DNA of 64,000 nt from Candidatus Cloacimonadota bacterium (GTDB lineage Bacteria > Cloacimonadota > Cloacimonadia > Cloacimonadales > Cloacimonadaceae). Where the stretch lies: assembly GCA_012728875.1 (NCBI GenBank), contig JAAYEF010000031.1:124001-188000 (forward strand), read 5' to 3'. The notes under the pieces are model-generated. The model searched no databases. It was not told the DNA's origin and worked only from the letters and a program-made list of their open reading frames with translations. Position numbers and translations under genes: made by a program. Shown here one piece after another: positions 6,905 through 62,343 of this stretch (position 1 is its first letter; the number at the start of each line of letters is the position of its first letter).

Positions 6905-7321
6905 GATCTTTCCTCCTTGATCATGCGGGTTGAAGGTGGAGTTTATATACATAACCAAAAATTGGATATTTAAATTATCTGTCAAGAGATTTCTGACAAA
7001 TATTTTAATGATTCTCAAACCTTGAACTAGCGAGGGCGAAGAGAAAAAAAGGCTGGACAGAAAAAGGGTTCTTGTAGATTTTGAATTTTATGTTTGTTTT
7101 TGGGGACATGTTTTGGATGTCTCCGCATATCCGAAAACCCCCAAAAGCTGATAACGCCATGATAATTAATAAGATAGGACGCTGCAATTGTGTAAGCGAC
7201 CCGGCGGAAGCGTGATTTGGCAAATGATTGATTTCTATCGTTGTATTCCCAAACCAAGAGATAGAGAATAATAAAACTGATATTTGCTGCCATATATGAT
7301 CAATCCATTGAGGAGGAAAAA
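6905..7321. other. 417-bp divergent intergenic region
   Basis: Lies between the minus-strand secreted protein and the plus-strand CotH gene and must hold both promoters. I see a TTGACA on the minus strand (6985-6980) without a good -10, and on the plus strand the 38-bp ops-like element at 7177-7214. The two minus-strand ORFs of the track here (7005-7355 and 7027-7293) have no ribosome site or recognisable protein and are not annotated as genes. Confidence 0.6.
7177..7214 (+). promoter_or_regulatory. ops/JUMPstart-like element, copy A
   Basis: A 38-bp sequence beginning GGACGCTGC and ending CCCGGCGGAAGCGTG. It matches copy B (17578-17615) at 31 of 38 positions with no gaps. Its 3' end differs at one base from the ops core GGCGGTAGCGTG that recruits RfaH in enterobacterial polysaccharide operons, and a TGTAA lies 7 bp before that core as in the JUMPstart consensus I recall. 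It sits 107 bp upstream of the CotH start, a leader-like position. Confidence 0.6.
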
Positions 7322-10300
7322 ATGACAAAGTATGTGAAACCAACGGCTCTGGCATCGTTGCTGTTTTTCTTTTTTATTTGTGCAATTTATGGAAGTAGCA
7401 GCACCATGCCGATTTTGTCCAACAGGGCGATTTACGGAGTATGCATCAACGAGTTGATGGGGTCAAACGAGACCATCATTGCAGACAATGATGGCGATTA
7501 TGAAGATTGGGTGGAGTTGTGGAACCATGGCGAGGAAGCTGTGAGCCTGGAAGGCTGGGGTTTGTCCGACAAAGCTTCCGAGCCCTTCCGCTGGGTTTTT
7601 CCCGCGGTGGTTCTGCAGCCAGACCAGTTTATGCTCGTTTGGTGTTCCAAAAAAGACAGAGCTGTGGCAGGTGCACCCCTGCACACCAATTTTGGGATCA
7701 GCTCCAGTGGGGAAGAGATATTCCTGACACATCCTTCCGGGACTTTGGCAGATTTGGCCCCAGCCATAGCATCACAAGCTGATATTTCCGTGGGACGATT
7801 TCCGGACGGGACCGGTCCCTGGTTTTTCTTTGACCAGCCCACACCTCTGGCGCCAAACACATCCCCCTATTACACGGAGATTTTGGCTCCTCCAGTTTTT
7901 TCAATGCCCGGCGGTTTTTATTCGGAAGGTTTCGATTTGTTGCTCACCCATCCTGATCCGGAGGTGACCGTTGTGTACAGTCTGGACGGCTCCGAACCCG
8001 ATCTTGGCAATCTCAACGGAACAGTCTATCAATACAAAAACAGCTACAGGGCCAGTCCCTCCAATCCGGAGGCTCCCATGCTGGAAAATAGTTACCAATC
8101 GCATCTTTATCAGGCTCCCCTTCTGATTCATGATCGTTCTCCTGAAGCGGATAAGATGAGCCAAATGTCTTCCACCTACGATTATATTCCCGCCTATTTT
8201 CCATCGAACCCGGTAACAAAAGGGACGGTGGTGCGAGCCAAGGCCTTCAAGCCCAATGCTTTGGCCAGTGAAACAATTACGAACACATATTTCGTGTTTG
8301 CCGAAGGGCGGGGCAGATACCAGCTTCCAGTTGTGTCCTTCAGCGTGCAGGAAGATCTGTTCTTTGATTATCAGAATGGAATCTATACGGCTGGCGTGGA
8401 CTTTGATACCTGGCGGGCAAGCAATCCAAATTCCACTGCGATGGGAAGCATTGGAAACTGGACCCGCAGTGGTGAAGAGTGGGAATACCCGGCGCATTTC
8501 GAATTGTTTGAAACCGAGAGCAATAACGCGGCGTTAAGCCAAAGAGTAGGTTTTCGCCTTCATGGCGGATGGAGCACCCTGTATTCCAGAAAATCACTGC
8601 GCCTCTACGCGCGTGATATCTATGGTACCAGCAGTTTTGACCACAACATTTTTAAAGATCAACCCTACAGCTCCTACAAGCGTATTATTCTAAGGAATTC
8701 CGGTAACGACTATCACAGAACCCAGCTCAAAGACGCCACCATTCAAGAAATTTGTAAAAACTTGCATTTTGACACCCAAGCCAGTCAACCCTCTGTGCTT
8801 TTTGTGAACGGAGAATATTGGGGCATACATAATATACGTGAAAGATATGATAAACACTATCTTGCCCGTGTGTATGGAGTGGATTCCGAAAACCTGGACC
8901 TTTTGGAAACCTATTCAGACATCAACGAAGGTGACCGCGTTCATTTCAATGCGATGATGACATATATCCGCAACCACAATCTGAGCAACCCAACCTACTT
9001 TGAGCATGTATCCACTTTAATGGATATCGAAAACTTCATGGATTACCAGATTGCCGAAATCTTCATCCGCAACCACGATTGGCCCGGCAACAACGTCAAA
9101 TATTGGAGATTGAGGACCAATGCCTACCTGCCCGATGCCCCCTATGGGCATGATGGTCGTTGGCGCTGGCTGATGTATGACACAGATTTGGGGTTTCTCA
9201 ATGCTGCTGAAAGCGCGGACAACACTTTGATCTGGGCAACCACCCACGGGAGCGCGCATTCCACCAAGATTCTAAACGGCCTGCTTAAAAACCAGGGTTT
9301 TAAAACCGCTTTCATCAATCGTTTTGCCGACCTGATGAACAGCCACTTCGCCCCTGCGCACATGATTGAGATAATTCAAAAGAATAAAGCCGTCATTGCC
9401 CCGGAGATCCCGGAGCAGATCGTGCGTTGGAAAGTTCCCACAACCCAGGCTCAATGGAATAATTTTGTAAATTGGATGATCGCCTTTGCAAACAACAGGC
9501 CTGCGCATCAACGCCAACATTTAAGGGATTTCTTTGATATCCCCGGCGATATTCTGGTAACTCTGGATGTGAACGACAACCAGCAGGGGCTGCTGCGCAT
9601 CAACAGCATAGATGTTTCTGACGGCACCCCCGGCATAAACGAAGCGCCCTATCCTTGGGACGGCATCTATTTCCACGGCATCCCCATCGAGGTGGAAGCC
9701 AAAGCCTTGCCCGGTTATGTATTCAGCCATTGGGAAGGCGATGCCCAAGGGACGGAACCCATATTAACTCTGACTCCGGATGGTGACTTATATTTGAAAG
9801 CCGTGTTCACCCAGAGCGGCCTGAGCGACGCCGAAATCATCCACTATTGGCATTTCAATTCCCTTCCCGATGGAACCCTCATTTCGGTCGCATCAGACTA
9901 TTCCGTGTTGGGAACCGCCACCATCACCTATCCCGGCACGGGTGACGGCTATATGGACAGACGCACCCACCGTGCCGCCGATCCCGTTTCAAACCTGAAC
10001 CTGCTGATGGGTCAGGAACCTAATCAAGGCGCTGTCCTGCGTTTGCGCAACCCCTCGGACACGAGGGAACTGATTGTGGAAGCTCCCAGCACAGGCTTCC
10101 AAACCATCAGCGGAGCCTATGCCACATCCCGCACCAGCAACGGCGCCACCCAGCAGGAACTGTATTATTCCACAGATGGCGGTGCAAGCTGGACCCAGAT
10201 CGGCTCCACCTACAGCCTCCCTGAGCTTCCTGACTGGATTTTGAGGACATTTGACATTTCCAGCGATGAAGCTGCCAACAACAACGAAAACCTGATGTTC

Positions 10301-11584
10301 CGGATTCATTTTACGGGAGAGAATACTGACAACGCATCTGGAAACGACAGGCTCGACAACTTCAGCCTGCACGGGATTCCCTTGCCCGAGGTGAATCTGC
10401 CGCCTCTGGTGATTGAGATTCCCGCGCTCCAAAAAGCCATTGAAGAAGGTGACGCTCTGCAGATTGAGCTGGGCAATCTTTTCCAGGACCCGGAAAATGA
10501 TTTCCTGAGCTTCACGGTCGGTTCATCCCGTCCGGATTTTGTTCAGGCTCAATTGCTTGGCGATGTTTTGAGCCTCACACCCCTCAGAAGAGGAGACGCC
10601 CTCATCACAGTTTCTGCCAACGACGGCTTCAATGAAGATGTCAACATCGAGTTCAAGGTTTTGGTCTATCCCAAAGCCTACAGCTTCAGCGATTCCGGCT
10701 ACAGCTTCAATGCCTGGGATGCCGGCACCCCGGAATTGGTCTATCCTCAGCACATGCTGTTCCTGCAATCCGACGTGGATGACCCCGGCTTGGCCCAGCC
10801 ATTGGAACATGCCTATCACATCGAACACGATGACTATCACGCAAGCGACTCCGGCAGTATCGGTTATCCCTATCAGCTCACAGGCCGCAGCCGCCTCAAC
10901 GGTTTGGGCGAGGATGGCATATCCTTTATCAACACCGGCCGCGGCCGCGATCTGGGCGGCGCCTTGCTGGCCTTGAACACCGTTGGCGAAGAGGAACTGG
11001 AGCTAAGCTGGCTGGGTGGCACGCTTTTGCGCAACAATCGGGTGTATGCCATCCGCCTGCAATATCGCATCGGCATCGATGGTGATTTCAGTGACTTTCT
11101 GATGGATGGCAGTCCGGTGGAATACCTCGCCGCCAACGATGGTGACAGCCAGGTTTTCAGCGGTTTGCAGCTTCCCGCCGAGCTTTTGGGACAGGAATAT
11201 CTGCAGCTGCTGTGGAAATATTACCACGTCAGCGGCGGCAGCGGTTCCCGTGCCCAGTTGCGTCTGGACGAGATCAGCATTCGGCGCCCGGATGCAGGAC
11301 TTCCCCCGGTGGAAGAGCTGAGGATCAGCCACGTTCCAGAAAGCGAGGGGATCCTGCTTGAGTGGAACCATCCCGGCACCGTGAGCAGATTCCTGATCTA
11401 CAGCAGTGATATGCCATATTTCAGCCCGGATGCCGAAAACTTCCTGACCGCGGTGGACTATCCTCAAACCCAATACCTCGATCCCGAGCCTCAGGACAGA
11501 AGGTTTTACATTGTGATCGCGGAACGGGATGCAAACGCCGCAGCCGGCACAGGAAGACGTCAGATCCATAAAAATACAAAATAA
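7322..11584 (+). CDS. large exported lamin-tail / CotH-kinase-domain protein
   Basis: A 1420-residue exported protein with a signal peptide in the first 25 residues and a strong ribosome site (GAGGAGGAAAAA). Domains in order: lamin-tail domain about 38-155 ('INELMGSNETIIADNDGDYEDW'-type start); chitobiase-C/Fn3-like domain about 180-320 ('VVYSLDGSEPD'); CotH-family atypical kinase domain about 335-700 ('GFRLHGGWSTLYSRKSLRLY', 'WRWLMYDTDLGFL' with the DxD expected at the metal site); a beta-repeat with 'GYVFSHWEGDAQG'; a jelly-roll-like part; a cadherin-like part near 1040-1110; and a C-terminal Fn3-like domain. CotH enzymes phosphorylate serines of secreted proteins, so this may modify surface proteins. 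No FlgD-like sorting domain is present. First gene after ops-like copy A. Confidence 0.85.
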   Translation: MTKYVKPTALASLLFFFFICAIYGSSSTMPILSNRAIYGVCINELMGSNETIIADNDGDYEDWVELWNHGEEAVSLEGWGLSDKASEPFRWVFPAVVLQPDQFMLVWCSKKDRAVAGAPLHTNFGISSSGEEIFLTHPSGTLADLAPAIASQADISVGRFPDGTGPWFFFDQPTPLAPNTSPYYTEILAPPVFSMPGGFYSEGFDLLLTHPDPEVTVVYSLDGSEPDLGNLNGTVYQYKNSYRASPSNPEAPMLENSYQSHLYQAPLLIHDRSPEADKMSQMSSTYDYIPAYFPSNPVTKGTVVRAKAFKPNALASETITNTYFVFAEGRGRYQLPVVSFSVQEDLFFDYQNGIYTAGVDFDTWRASNPNSTAMGSIGNWTRSGEEWEYPAHFELFETESNNAALSQRVGFRLHGGWSTLYSRKSLRLYARDIYGTSSFDHNIFKDQPYSSYKRIILRNSGNDYHRTQLKDATIQEICKNLHFDTQASQPSVLFVNGEYWGIHNIRERYDKHYLARVYGVDSENLDLLETYSDINEGDRVHFNAMMTYIRNHNLSNPTYFEHVSTLMDIENFMDYQIAEIFIRNHDWPGNNVKYWRLRTNAYLPDAPYGHDGRWRWLMYDTDLGFLNAAESADNTLIWATTHGSAHSTKILNGLLKNQGFKTAFINRFADLMNSHFAPAHMIEIIQKNKAVIAPEIPEQIVRWKVPTTQAQWNNFVNWMIAFANNRPAHQRQHLRDFFDIPGDILVTLDVNDNQQGLLRINSIDVSDGTPGINEAPYPWDGIYFHGIPIEVEAKALPGYVFSHWEGDAQGTEPILTLTPDGDLYLKAVFTQSGLSDAEIIHYWHFNSLPDGTLISVASDYSVLGTATITYPGTGDGYMDRRTHRAADPVSNLNLLMGQEPNQGAVLRLRNPSDTRELIVEAPSTGFQTISGAYATSRTSNGATQQELYYSTDGGASWTQIGSTYSLPELPDWILRTFDISSDEAANNNENLMFRIHFTGENTDNASGNDRLDNFSLHGIPLPEVNLPPLVIEIPALQKAIEEGDALQIELGNLFQDPENDFLSFTVGSSRPDFVQAQLLGDVLSLTPLRRGDALITVSANDGFNEDVNIEFKVLVYPKAYSFSDSGYSFNAWDAGTPELVYPQHMLFLQSDVDDPGLAQPLEHAYHIEHDDYHASDSGSIGYPYQLTGRSRLNGLGEDGISFINTGRGRDLGGALLALNTVGEEELELSWLGGTLLRNNRVYAIRLQYRIGIDGDFSDFLMDGSPVEYLAANDGDSQVFSGLQLPAELLGQEYLQLLWKYYHVSGGSGSRAQLRLDEISIRRPDAGLPPVEELRISHVPESEGILLEWNHPGTVSRFLIYSSDMPYFSPDAENFLTAVDYPQTQYLDPEPQDRRFYIVIAERDANAAAGTGRRQIHKNTK

Positions 11585-17577: not shown

Positions 17578-17615
17578 GGACGCTGCCTCTTTGCAAGCAA
17601 CCCGGCGAAAGCGTG
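17578..17615 (+). promoter_or_regulatory. ops/JUMPstart-like element, copy B
   Basis: Second copy of the 38-bp element, GGACGCTGC through CCCGGCGAAAGCGTG, 31 of 38 bases identical to copy A and in the same orientation. It lies 103 bp upstream of rmlA, the first gene of the main polysaccharide unit, nearly the same distance as copy A from its gene. ACGCT at the 5' side and AGCGT at the 3' side could pair. The ops core here has two changes from GGCGGTAGCGTG. The rest of the 240-bp gap shows nothing clear. Confidence 0.6.
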
Positions 17616-17718: not shown

Positions 17719-18582
17719 ATGAAAGGAATCATTCTCGCCGGCGGCTCCGGAACCCGCCTGCACCCTTTAACCATTTCCGTCAGCAAACAATTGATGCCGG
17801 TTTACGACAAACCGATGATCTACTATCCGCTTTCCACCCTGATGCTCACCGGCATCCGGGAGGTTTTGATCATCACCACCCCTGAAGACCAAGCCAGTTT
17901 CCAAAAGCTTTTGGGCGACGGAAGCCAACTGGGCATGCGCTTTGCATATCAGGTGCAGGCGGTTCCCAACGGCCTGGCCCAGGCTTTTGTGATTGGTGCC
18001 GATTTTGTGGGTTCAGACAAAGTCTGCCTGATTTTGGGCGACAATATCTTCTACGGTGCTGATCTCGCCAAACGTTTGGATAAATGCACCGACCCCGATG
18101 GCGCAATCGTTACAGCCTACCCTGTGAAAGACCCCCAACGCTATGGAGTGGTGGAATTTGACCACAAAAACCAAGCCATCAGTCTGGAAGAAAAACCTGC
18201 CCAGCCAAAATCCAATTTCGCCGTCCCCGGACTCTATTTTTACGACAACAGCGTCTTGGAAGTGGCGGCAAAGCTCAAGCCCTCAGCCCGGGGCGAATAT
18301 GAGATTACGGATGTGAACAAGACCTATCTGGCGCAGGGAAAGCTGGATGTGATTGCCTTTGGACGTGGCACAGCCTGGCTGGATACGGGAACCTTTGAAA
18401 CGCTCTTGCAGGCTTCGCAGTTTGTGGAAATCATCGAACACCGCCAGGGCTTCAAAATCAGTTGCATCGAAGAAATCGCCTACCGCAAGGGCTTCATCGA
18501 CAAAGAGCAGTTGCTCAAGCTCGCCGAACCCATCAAAAAAAGCGGTTATGGCGAATATCTCATCAGCTTGGTTGGGGAATAA
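17719..18582 (+). CDS. rmlA: glucose-1-phosphate thymidylyltransferase
   Basis: Makes dTDP-glucose from dTTP and glucose-1-phosphate, the entry to dTDP-deoxysugars. The 287 residues are full length and typical: '[37 protein letters not shown]' at the N-terminus, 'ILGDNIFYG', 'VEFD' and 'GTAWLDTGT' follow. Ribosome site AAGGAG before ATG 17719. It heads the long plus-strand unit after ops-like copy B. No rmlB, rmlC or rmlD gene is recognisable in the window, so the next step must be encoded elsewhere. The product probably feeds the aminotransferase/2,3-dehydratase/ketoreductase set at 31.7-35.3 kb. Confidence 0.95.
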
Positions 18583-59851: not shown

Positions 59852-60247
59852 ATGAAGATCAACGACATCAGCTATCAAATCAGAGGCGCCATATTTGATG
59901 TCTATAACGAGCTTGGACCAGGCTTGTTGGAAAATGTTTATGAAAAAGCCATGGTGCACGAACTTCAAACCAGAGGCTTGAACGTGCAATGCCAAGTTCC
60001 CATCGAAATTTTGTACAAGGGCAAGCCCTTGGGAATGCACTACAAACTTGACATGCTGGTGGAAAATACCGTGGTGGTTGAACTGAAATCTGTGGAAACC
60101 CTGCTGCCGCTGTTTAAAAAGCAGCTTGAGACCTATCTCAAACTATCCGGAAAACCTTTGGGAATTCTGGTGAATTTCAATACCAACAACCTGAACAACA
60201 ACATCATACGTATAGCCAATTGCCCAGACAATCAGGAATTAAAATAA
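59852..60247 (+). CDS. GxxExxY protein (PD-(D/E)XK nuclease-like)
   Basis: A 131-residue member of the GxxExxY family. The name-giving motif is 'GPGLLENVYEKAM' (G-L-L-E-N-V-Y), preceded by 'DISYQIRGAIFDVYNELG'; 'YKLDMLVENTVVVELKSVETL' provides the D...ExK of the nuclease-like core, and 'FKKQLETYLKLSGKPLGILVNF' is the conserved end. Function is not established. Here it is enclosed by inverted arrays of 9-bp repeats. It has no obvious link to polysaccharide synthesis and looks like an insertion between the epimerase and the sugar transferase. Confidence 0.9.
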   Translation: MKINDISYQIRGAIFDVYNELGPGLLENVYEKAMVHELQTRGLNVQCQVPIEILYKGKPLGMHYKLDMLVENTVVVELKSVETLLPLFKKQLETYLKLSGKPLGILVNFNTNNLNNNIIRIANCPDNQELK

Positions 60248-61916: not shown

Positions 61917-61949
61917 ACGGATCAAACGGATATAACGGATCAAACGGAT
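61917..61949 (+). repeat. left 9-bp repeat array of GxxExxY module 3
   Basis: ACGGAT occurs four times at exactly 9-bp spacing (61917, 61926, 61935, 61944) with 3-bp spacers CAA, ATA, CAA. The last unit contributes the first two bases of the GxxExxY start codon (ACGG-ATG). The inverted partner is at 62348-62380. Confidence 0.85.
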
Positions 61950-62343
61950 GAGGTTGATATATCAGGAGTTAACGCAGGAGATTCTGGGCGCTTGCATGGA
62001 AGTTTACAACCAGCTTGGAAGTGGATTTTTGGAAGCAGTCTATTGCGATGCTCTGGAATACGAATTTTCCCTGAGGGGCATCCCTGCCAAGCGCGAAAAA
62101 GTATTTTATATCTCATATAAAGACAAACAGTTAAGTAAATACTACAAGGCGGACTTCCTCTGCTTTGATAAAATCATCCTGGAGATCAAGGCAGTTGACA
62201 AGATCCTGCCCGTGCACAAGCAACAGTTGTTTAACTATCTGAAACTCTCAGACTTAAAACTCGGCTATGTCATCAATTTTGGTGGCATCAAACTGGAATG
62301 GGAGCGCATACCCAATCTCTATTCCAAGCCACAAACCAACTAA
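61948..62343 (+). CDS. GxxExxY protein (PD-(D/E)XK nuclease-like)
   Basis: A 131-residue GxxExxY protein. 'ELTQEILGACMEVYNQLGSG' then 'GFLEAVYCDALEYEF' carries the motif (G-F-L-E-A-V-Y); 'YYKADFLCFDKIILEIKAVDKI' gives the D...ExK; 'VHKQQLFNYLKLSDLKLGYVINFGG' closes it. It is diverged from the copy at 59.85 kb, so the two are not a recent tandem duplication. The ATG lies at the edge of the left repeat array, and no ribosome site precedes it except the array itself. Confidence 0.9.
   Translation: MRLIYQELTQEILGACMEVYNQLGSGFLEAVYCDALEYEFSLRGIPAKREKVFYISYKDKQLSKYYKADFLCFDKIILEIKAVDKILPVHKQQLFNYLKLSDLKLGYVINFGGIKLEWERIPNLYSKPQTN

Follow-up and report, generated by a model that had tools for sequence, protein, structure and literature searches.

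A 38-bp leader element shared by two glycan units of a Cloacimonadota genome, possibly a divergent loading site for a NusG paralogue

Two long glycan gene clusters in the genome of a Candidatus Cloacimonadota bacterium are each preceded by a copy of the same 38-bp sequence, which occurs at no other site in the assembly and which keeps, in both copies, the pause bases of the Escherichia coli ops element. The same genome encodes a specialised paralogue of NusG, and the gene for this protein lies beside nucleotide-sugar genes. The 38-bp sequence is very likely a regulatory leader element. We tentatively read it as one specific to this genome, and possibly as a divergent site at which the NusG paralogue is loaded; the conserved paralogue is the sturdier discovery of the two.

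The window (the whole stretch of DNA that was analysed, 64 kb in length) contains copy A of the element at positions 7177-7214, 107 bp 5' of the ATG at 7322, and copy B at 17578-17615, 103 bp 5' of the ATG at 17719. Both copies are on the plus strand, and they are identical at 31 of 38 positions in an ungapped alignment; the coordinates, strand, identity and distances given in the original prediction all proved exact on recheck. The likeness stops sharply at 38 bp, with no alignable similarity between the flanks of copies A and B. That prediction also proposed a genome-wide motif scan, expecting matches only in the leaders of long operons, and the scan bears this out: in the assembly, which spans 2.17 Mb and is about 90% complete, a search at up to three mismatches finds two sites only, copies A and B, both in leaders of glycan units, and controls with reversed patterns give 0 matches. 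A covariance model built from both copies likewise has two genome matches at E<=10, again copies A and B. The elements have a G+C content of 63%, against 38-43% in the leaders that contain them.

Might the repeat have arisen by chance, or through an artefact of assembly? Dispersed repeats are common in these genomes, which lends this explanation some support, but we consider it very improbable. The probability of such a match is 4e-13 per ungapped pair of 38-mers; at the window's composition, pairs of such likeness are expected about 0.002 times across its 64 kb, and 7e-8 times when just two 400-bp leaders are compared. Moreover, the two copies differ from each other and have different flanks, which speaks against a duplicated assembly.

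Copy A precedes unit A, whose first gene (7322-11584, plus strand) encodes a CotH kinase / lamin-tail domain protein; the rest of the unit, up to 17478, consists of nucleotidyltransferase, FAD oxidoreductase, epimerase, sugar-transfer ATP-grasp and racemase-like genes. Unit B begins with a glucose-1-phosphate thymidylyltransferase-like gene (RmlA; 17719-18582, plus strand) and is followed, as far as about 63708, by glycan genes in an almost continuous plus-strand run. The G+C content of both units (47-48%) is below that of the sampled parts of the genome (about 50-51%). In position and strand, the element would fit a leader signal of long glycan clusters, having the same orientation as the predicted transcripts. 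No promoter or transcription start was located for either unit, which counts against reading the element as a loading site.

The locus is variable among relatives: RmlA was found in 13 of 50 family genomes, and its orthologues in relatives do not have the same leader. This variability, together with the arrangement of the two copies as direct repeats that stand 10.4 kb apart and flank unit A, would fit a leader or boundary segment that was copied or rearranged within the locus, with no specific regulation beyond that of a promoter region. Such an origin seems improbable to us, considering that the similarity breaks off at 38 bp, that the differences between the copies cluster in a predicted loop (see below) instead of being spread out, and that no recombinase was recognised among the scanned proteins of unit A.

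Two further features of the locus deserve brief mention. A hairpin (CAACG...CGTTG, 7341-7360) with a T-rich run after it lies about 127 bp 3' of copy A, within the beginning of unit A's first gene, and could be an attenuator; sites of this kind, hairpin plus T-run, are no commoner than in shuffled sequence. Within the glycan cluster, two short, mutually similar proteins are encoded at 59852-60247 and 61948-62343; they resemble the GxxExxY family.

The 3' part of the element invites comparison with ops. The ops-like core of copy A, GGCGGAAGCGTG (7203-7214, plus strand), matches the E. coli sequence GGCGGTAGCGTG at 11 of 12 positions, with T6 replaced by A, and that of copy B, GGCGAAAGCGTG (17604-17615, plus strand), matches at 10 of 12, with both G5 and T6 replaced by A. 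The earlier comparison with ops, a one-base difference, is right for copy A; in copy B, two bases differ. The TGTAA reported 7 bases before the core is present in copy A only and reads TGCAA in copy B. The pattern common to both copies, GGCGNNAGCGTG, equals ops apart from the central bases 5-6; which bases differ (6 in both copies, 5 in copy B) had been left out of the earlier description. Positions 1-4 and 7-12 are identical to ops in both copies, and these include the consensus-pause flanks GG.......GTG and the C3:G8 pair. In E. coli ops, the outer bases set the pause and C3:G8 has an architectural role, closing a hairpin in the non-template strand; G5 and T6 are the sole bases that form a network of specific hydrogen bonds with RfaH, and G5A and T6A, which abolish or weaken RfaH recruitment, rank among the most damaging substitutions in vivo (PMC5995543). 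It is this G5 + T6 core that neither copy retains. Because the outer positions are kept and the central two are changed, both copies appear as consensus-pause hairpins with altered read-out bases, GA or AA in place of the GT read by RfaH.

The similarity extends to the layout of the E. coli JUMPstart, whose reference sequence was checked against E. coli genomes: GCT-N10-AAGC-N5-core here, compared with GCT-N12-AAGC-N4-core in JUMPstart. The elements of both systems have AAGC 4-5 nt upstream of the core, a predicted stem-loop before it, and a location in the leaders of long surface-polysaccharide operons, whereas the 5' stem of the Cloacimonadota element is unrelated in sequence. In statistical terms the likeness to JUMPstart is modest. 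Out of 20,000 dinucleotide shuffles in each case, 57 for copy A (about 0.003) and 542 for copy B (about 0.027) reached the local alignment score, and unrelated stretches of the host genome align to JUMPstart with higher scores.

A stem-loop is predicted in the 5' part of each copy. In the minimum-energy fold of copy A (7177-7201, plus strand), GG pairs with CC and CGCTGCA with TGTAAGCG, and the whole resembles the E. coli JUMPstart, a stem-loop followed by the ops hairpin. In copy B (17578-17602, plus strand), the predicted stem-loop (GCTGC/GCAAGC, -7.8 kcal/mol) competes with an outer ACGCT/AGCGT stem (-9.6 kcal/mol), the fold with the outer stem being slightly preferred. Four of the seven differences between the copies fall within the predicted 6-nt loop (positions 10-15), and the difference at position 17 preserves pairing, G-U becoming G-C. 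The chance of finding four mismatches in this way is 0.006 for a stretch named beforehand and 0.11 for any 6-nt stretch. None of the RNA folds is better than those of dinucleotide shuffles (z of 0.55 for copy A), and for that reason the structure is put forward as a suggestion only, drawn from the pairing that the two copies share.

These features also bear on a different reading, namely that the two neighbouring units are co-regulated through some other shared leader element that resembles ops by coincidence: perhaps the operator of a DNA-binding regulator, or an RNA read by another protein or a ligand. The element is private to the host genome, as would be expected of a local regulon, the inverted outer arms ACGCT/AGCGT are exact in both copies, and the ops likeness is only modestly significant; Rfam has no family match to the element, which as an RNA would then be uncatalogued. 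On the other hand, the conserved block ends, in both copies, exactly at the pause-consensus bases of ops, and no regulator was recognised among the scanned proteins of the units. For a dimeric operator in particular, the 25 nt that separate the 5-bp arms would be an unusual gap. We regard fortuitous likeness as possible if doubtful, following closely behind the reading of the element as a loading site.

Which factor might be loaded? The host genome contains two NusG genes. One is a canonical nusG, which scores above its NCBIfam cut-off and lies just upstream of ribosomal-protein-like genes that we take to be rplK and rplA. The other is a second NusG-like gene of the sort that the original prediction had proposed to look for, a UpxY/RfaH-type paralogue of 189 aa encoded beside the nucleotide-sugar genes on contig C6 (G000:C6:95546-96112), away from both glycan units. 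Its best NCBIfam match is to UpxY (72.6 bits), followed by RfaH (54.9), LoaP (39.7) and NusG (28.4), and it falls below the cut-offs of the first three families alike (100, 144.5 and 125 bits, respectively); its Pfam NusG match is 39 bits. The structure model, which is moderately reliable (mean pLDDT 69), combines an NGN domain with a C-terminal domain predicted to consist of beta-strands, with structural matches to NusG, RfaH and Spt5, those to NusG and RfaH being the best. With an NGN domain, a KOW-type C-terminal domain and a separate canonical nusG in the same genome, the protein belongs among the specialised NusG factors. It is not RfaH proper, as judged from the model score and from the residues of the ops-binding patch (K10, H20, R23 and R73 in RfaH): K10 corresponds to K31 and H20 to Y41, and R73 falls in a gap and has no counterpart. 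K31 and other NGN residues are invariant in 25 aligned orthologues of the paralogue.

Two known systems offer instructive parallels. UpxY, of the Bacteroides capsule operons, is also a specialised NusG paralogue. However, UpxY genes are multiple, each residing inside the operon under its control (PMC7593976), whereas the Cloacimonadota paralogue is a single gene located elsewhere in the genome, is nearly universal in the phylum, and scores below the UpxY cut-off. In the LoaP system of Bacillus, one NusG paralogue is associated with two long operons, dfn and mln, that have a near-identical hairpin in their leaders (PMC12691694), which resembles the arrangement proposed here. LoaP differs in reading an RNA hairpin with a UNCG loop; the loops predicted here are not UNCG, and the LoaP score of the paralogue is likewise below its cut-off.

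Orthologues of the paralogue are found in 47 of 50 family genomes, mostly in single copy, within a conserved run of genes that includes an epimerase and a UDP-glucose-dehydrogenase-like gene. Reading the neighbours from their translations, we take the gene usually upstream of this run to be ahcY-like; in at least four genomes (L024, L030, L039 and L041), another dehydrogenase-like gene stands in its place. In a sample of the phylum that was spread evenly over a larger group, NusG homologues number exactly two in about 61 of 71 good genomes (>=90% complete and <=5% contaminated). Two homologues are therefore the rule in Cloacimonadota, not the single NusG gene that the original prediction had named as evidence against it. 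Specialised NusG paralogues are usually patchy in distribution. Within an incomplete collection of papers, we found none on NusG paralogues in Cloacimonadota; RfaH is mostly confined to Proteobacteria (PMC7593976).

The best single explanation of the element, and one that we hold tentatively, is that it serves as a divergent, ops-like site at which the resident NusG paralogue is loaded. In this model, the element would be a cis-acting leader signal of both glycan transcription units. RNA polymerase, transcribing through it, would pause at the consensus-pause bases GG.......GTG of the element's 3' end. The paralogue would next be loaded by the GC-GRAA-GC mini-hairpin of the non-template strand, by the upstream RNA stem-loop, or by both, and it would stay on the polymerase and prevent termination over 10-46 kb. 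Since the bases read by RfaH are changed and the paralogue has no residue corresponding to R73, recognition, if any, would be of a divergent kind. The link between element and paralogue is a plausible one. Antitermination by a NusG paralogue, as originally proposed, is favoured by the placement of the element in leaders, the pause bases, the JUMPstart-like layout and the second NusG; against it stands the absence of the motif elsewhere.

This absence extends over a wide range of genomes. A search of 60 relatives at up to three mismatches gave no match to the element, and no non-coding copy was found in 12 congeners and about 125 genomes of the phylum, most of which have the paralogue. The exact pattern of the 3' part has 0 matches in a set of 85,462 species, each represented by one genome, from which the nearest records were possibly left out, and a search of viral contigs gave no match either. 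Among 411 leaders of glycan regions, taken from the host genome and its congeners, alignment revealed nothing convincing beyond copies A and B. If the motif were the loading site of a conserved factor, it should recur, and its absence elsewhere counts against the claim that it marks a phylum-wide system, which is not supported. The conservation in related species with the factor that characterises ops was also not found. It should be noted that the assemblies of the congeners are in fragments and may lack leader regions, and that the site may change fast.

Several candidates that emerged from these searches were rejected. The covariance-model matches in five congeners are mutually similar and, judged by their translation, belong to a coding sequence, apparently that of a Glu-tRNA(Gln) amidotransferase-like gene, and are not leaders. 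The pattern AAGCN{3,6}GGCGNNAGCGTG has ten matches in 125 phylum genomes, and all eight of those outside the window lie in predicted open frames. A match in G010 from the leader alignment falls within a predicted frame that adjoins a glycosyltransferase match. Finally, about 1.2 Mb of a single-contig genome of the same family (G021) was examined and found to contain dispersed repeats but no ops-like leader. Dispersed repeats made of TTAATCAAG units were observed on contigs C27 (L057) and C15 (L060, L061) of G000 and in G003 (L084, L087), as exact or near-exact copies located between genes.

A broader reading, which we consider unlikely, is that the near-universal specialised NusG of Cloacimonadota loads at species-specific, fast-changing leader elements, each combining a stem-loop in the RNA with a consensus pause whose read-out bases are altered, and that the two copies described here are the first recognised example. 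To our knowledge, loading signals are known for very few other NusG paralogues. A paralogue that nearly every good Cloacimonadota genome encodes beside nucleotide-sugar genes, combined with a two-copy candidate loading site in one species, would make it testable how such factors find their operons outside Proteobacteria, and also how quickly the signal shifts under a protein that is itself retained.

One additional hairpin was observed at L110 (G011:C64), where GCCGGC-GGAA-GCTGGC, with a similar CGGCGGAAGC core, lies about 32 bp upstream of the gene that opens a 9-kb run containing a glycosyltransferase; it may be unrelated to the element.
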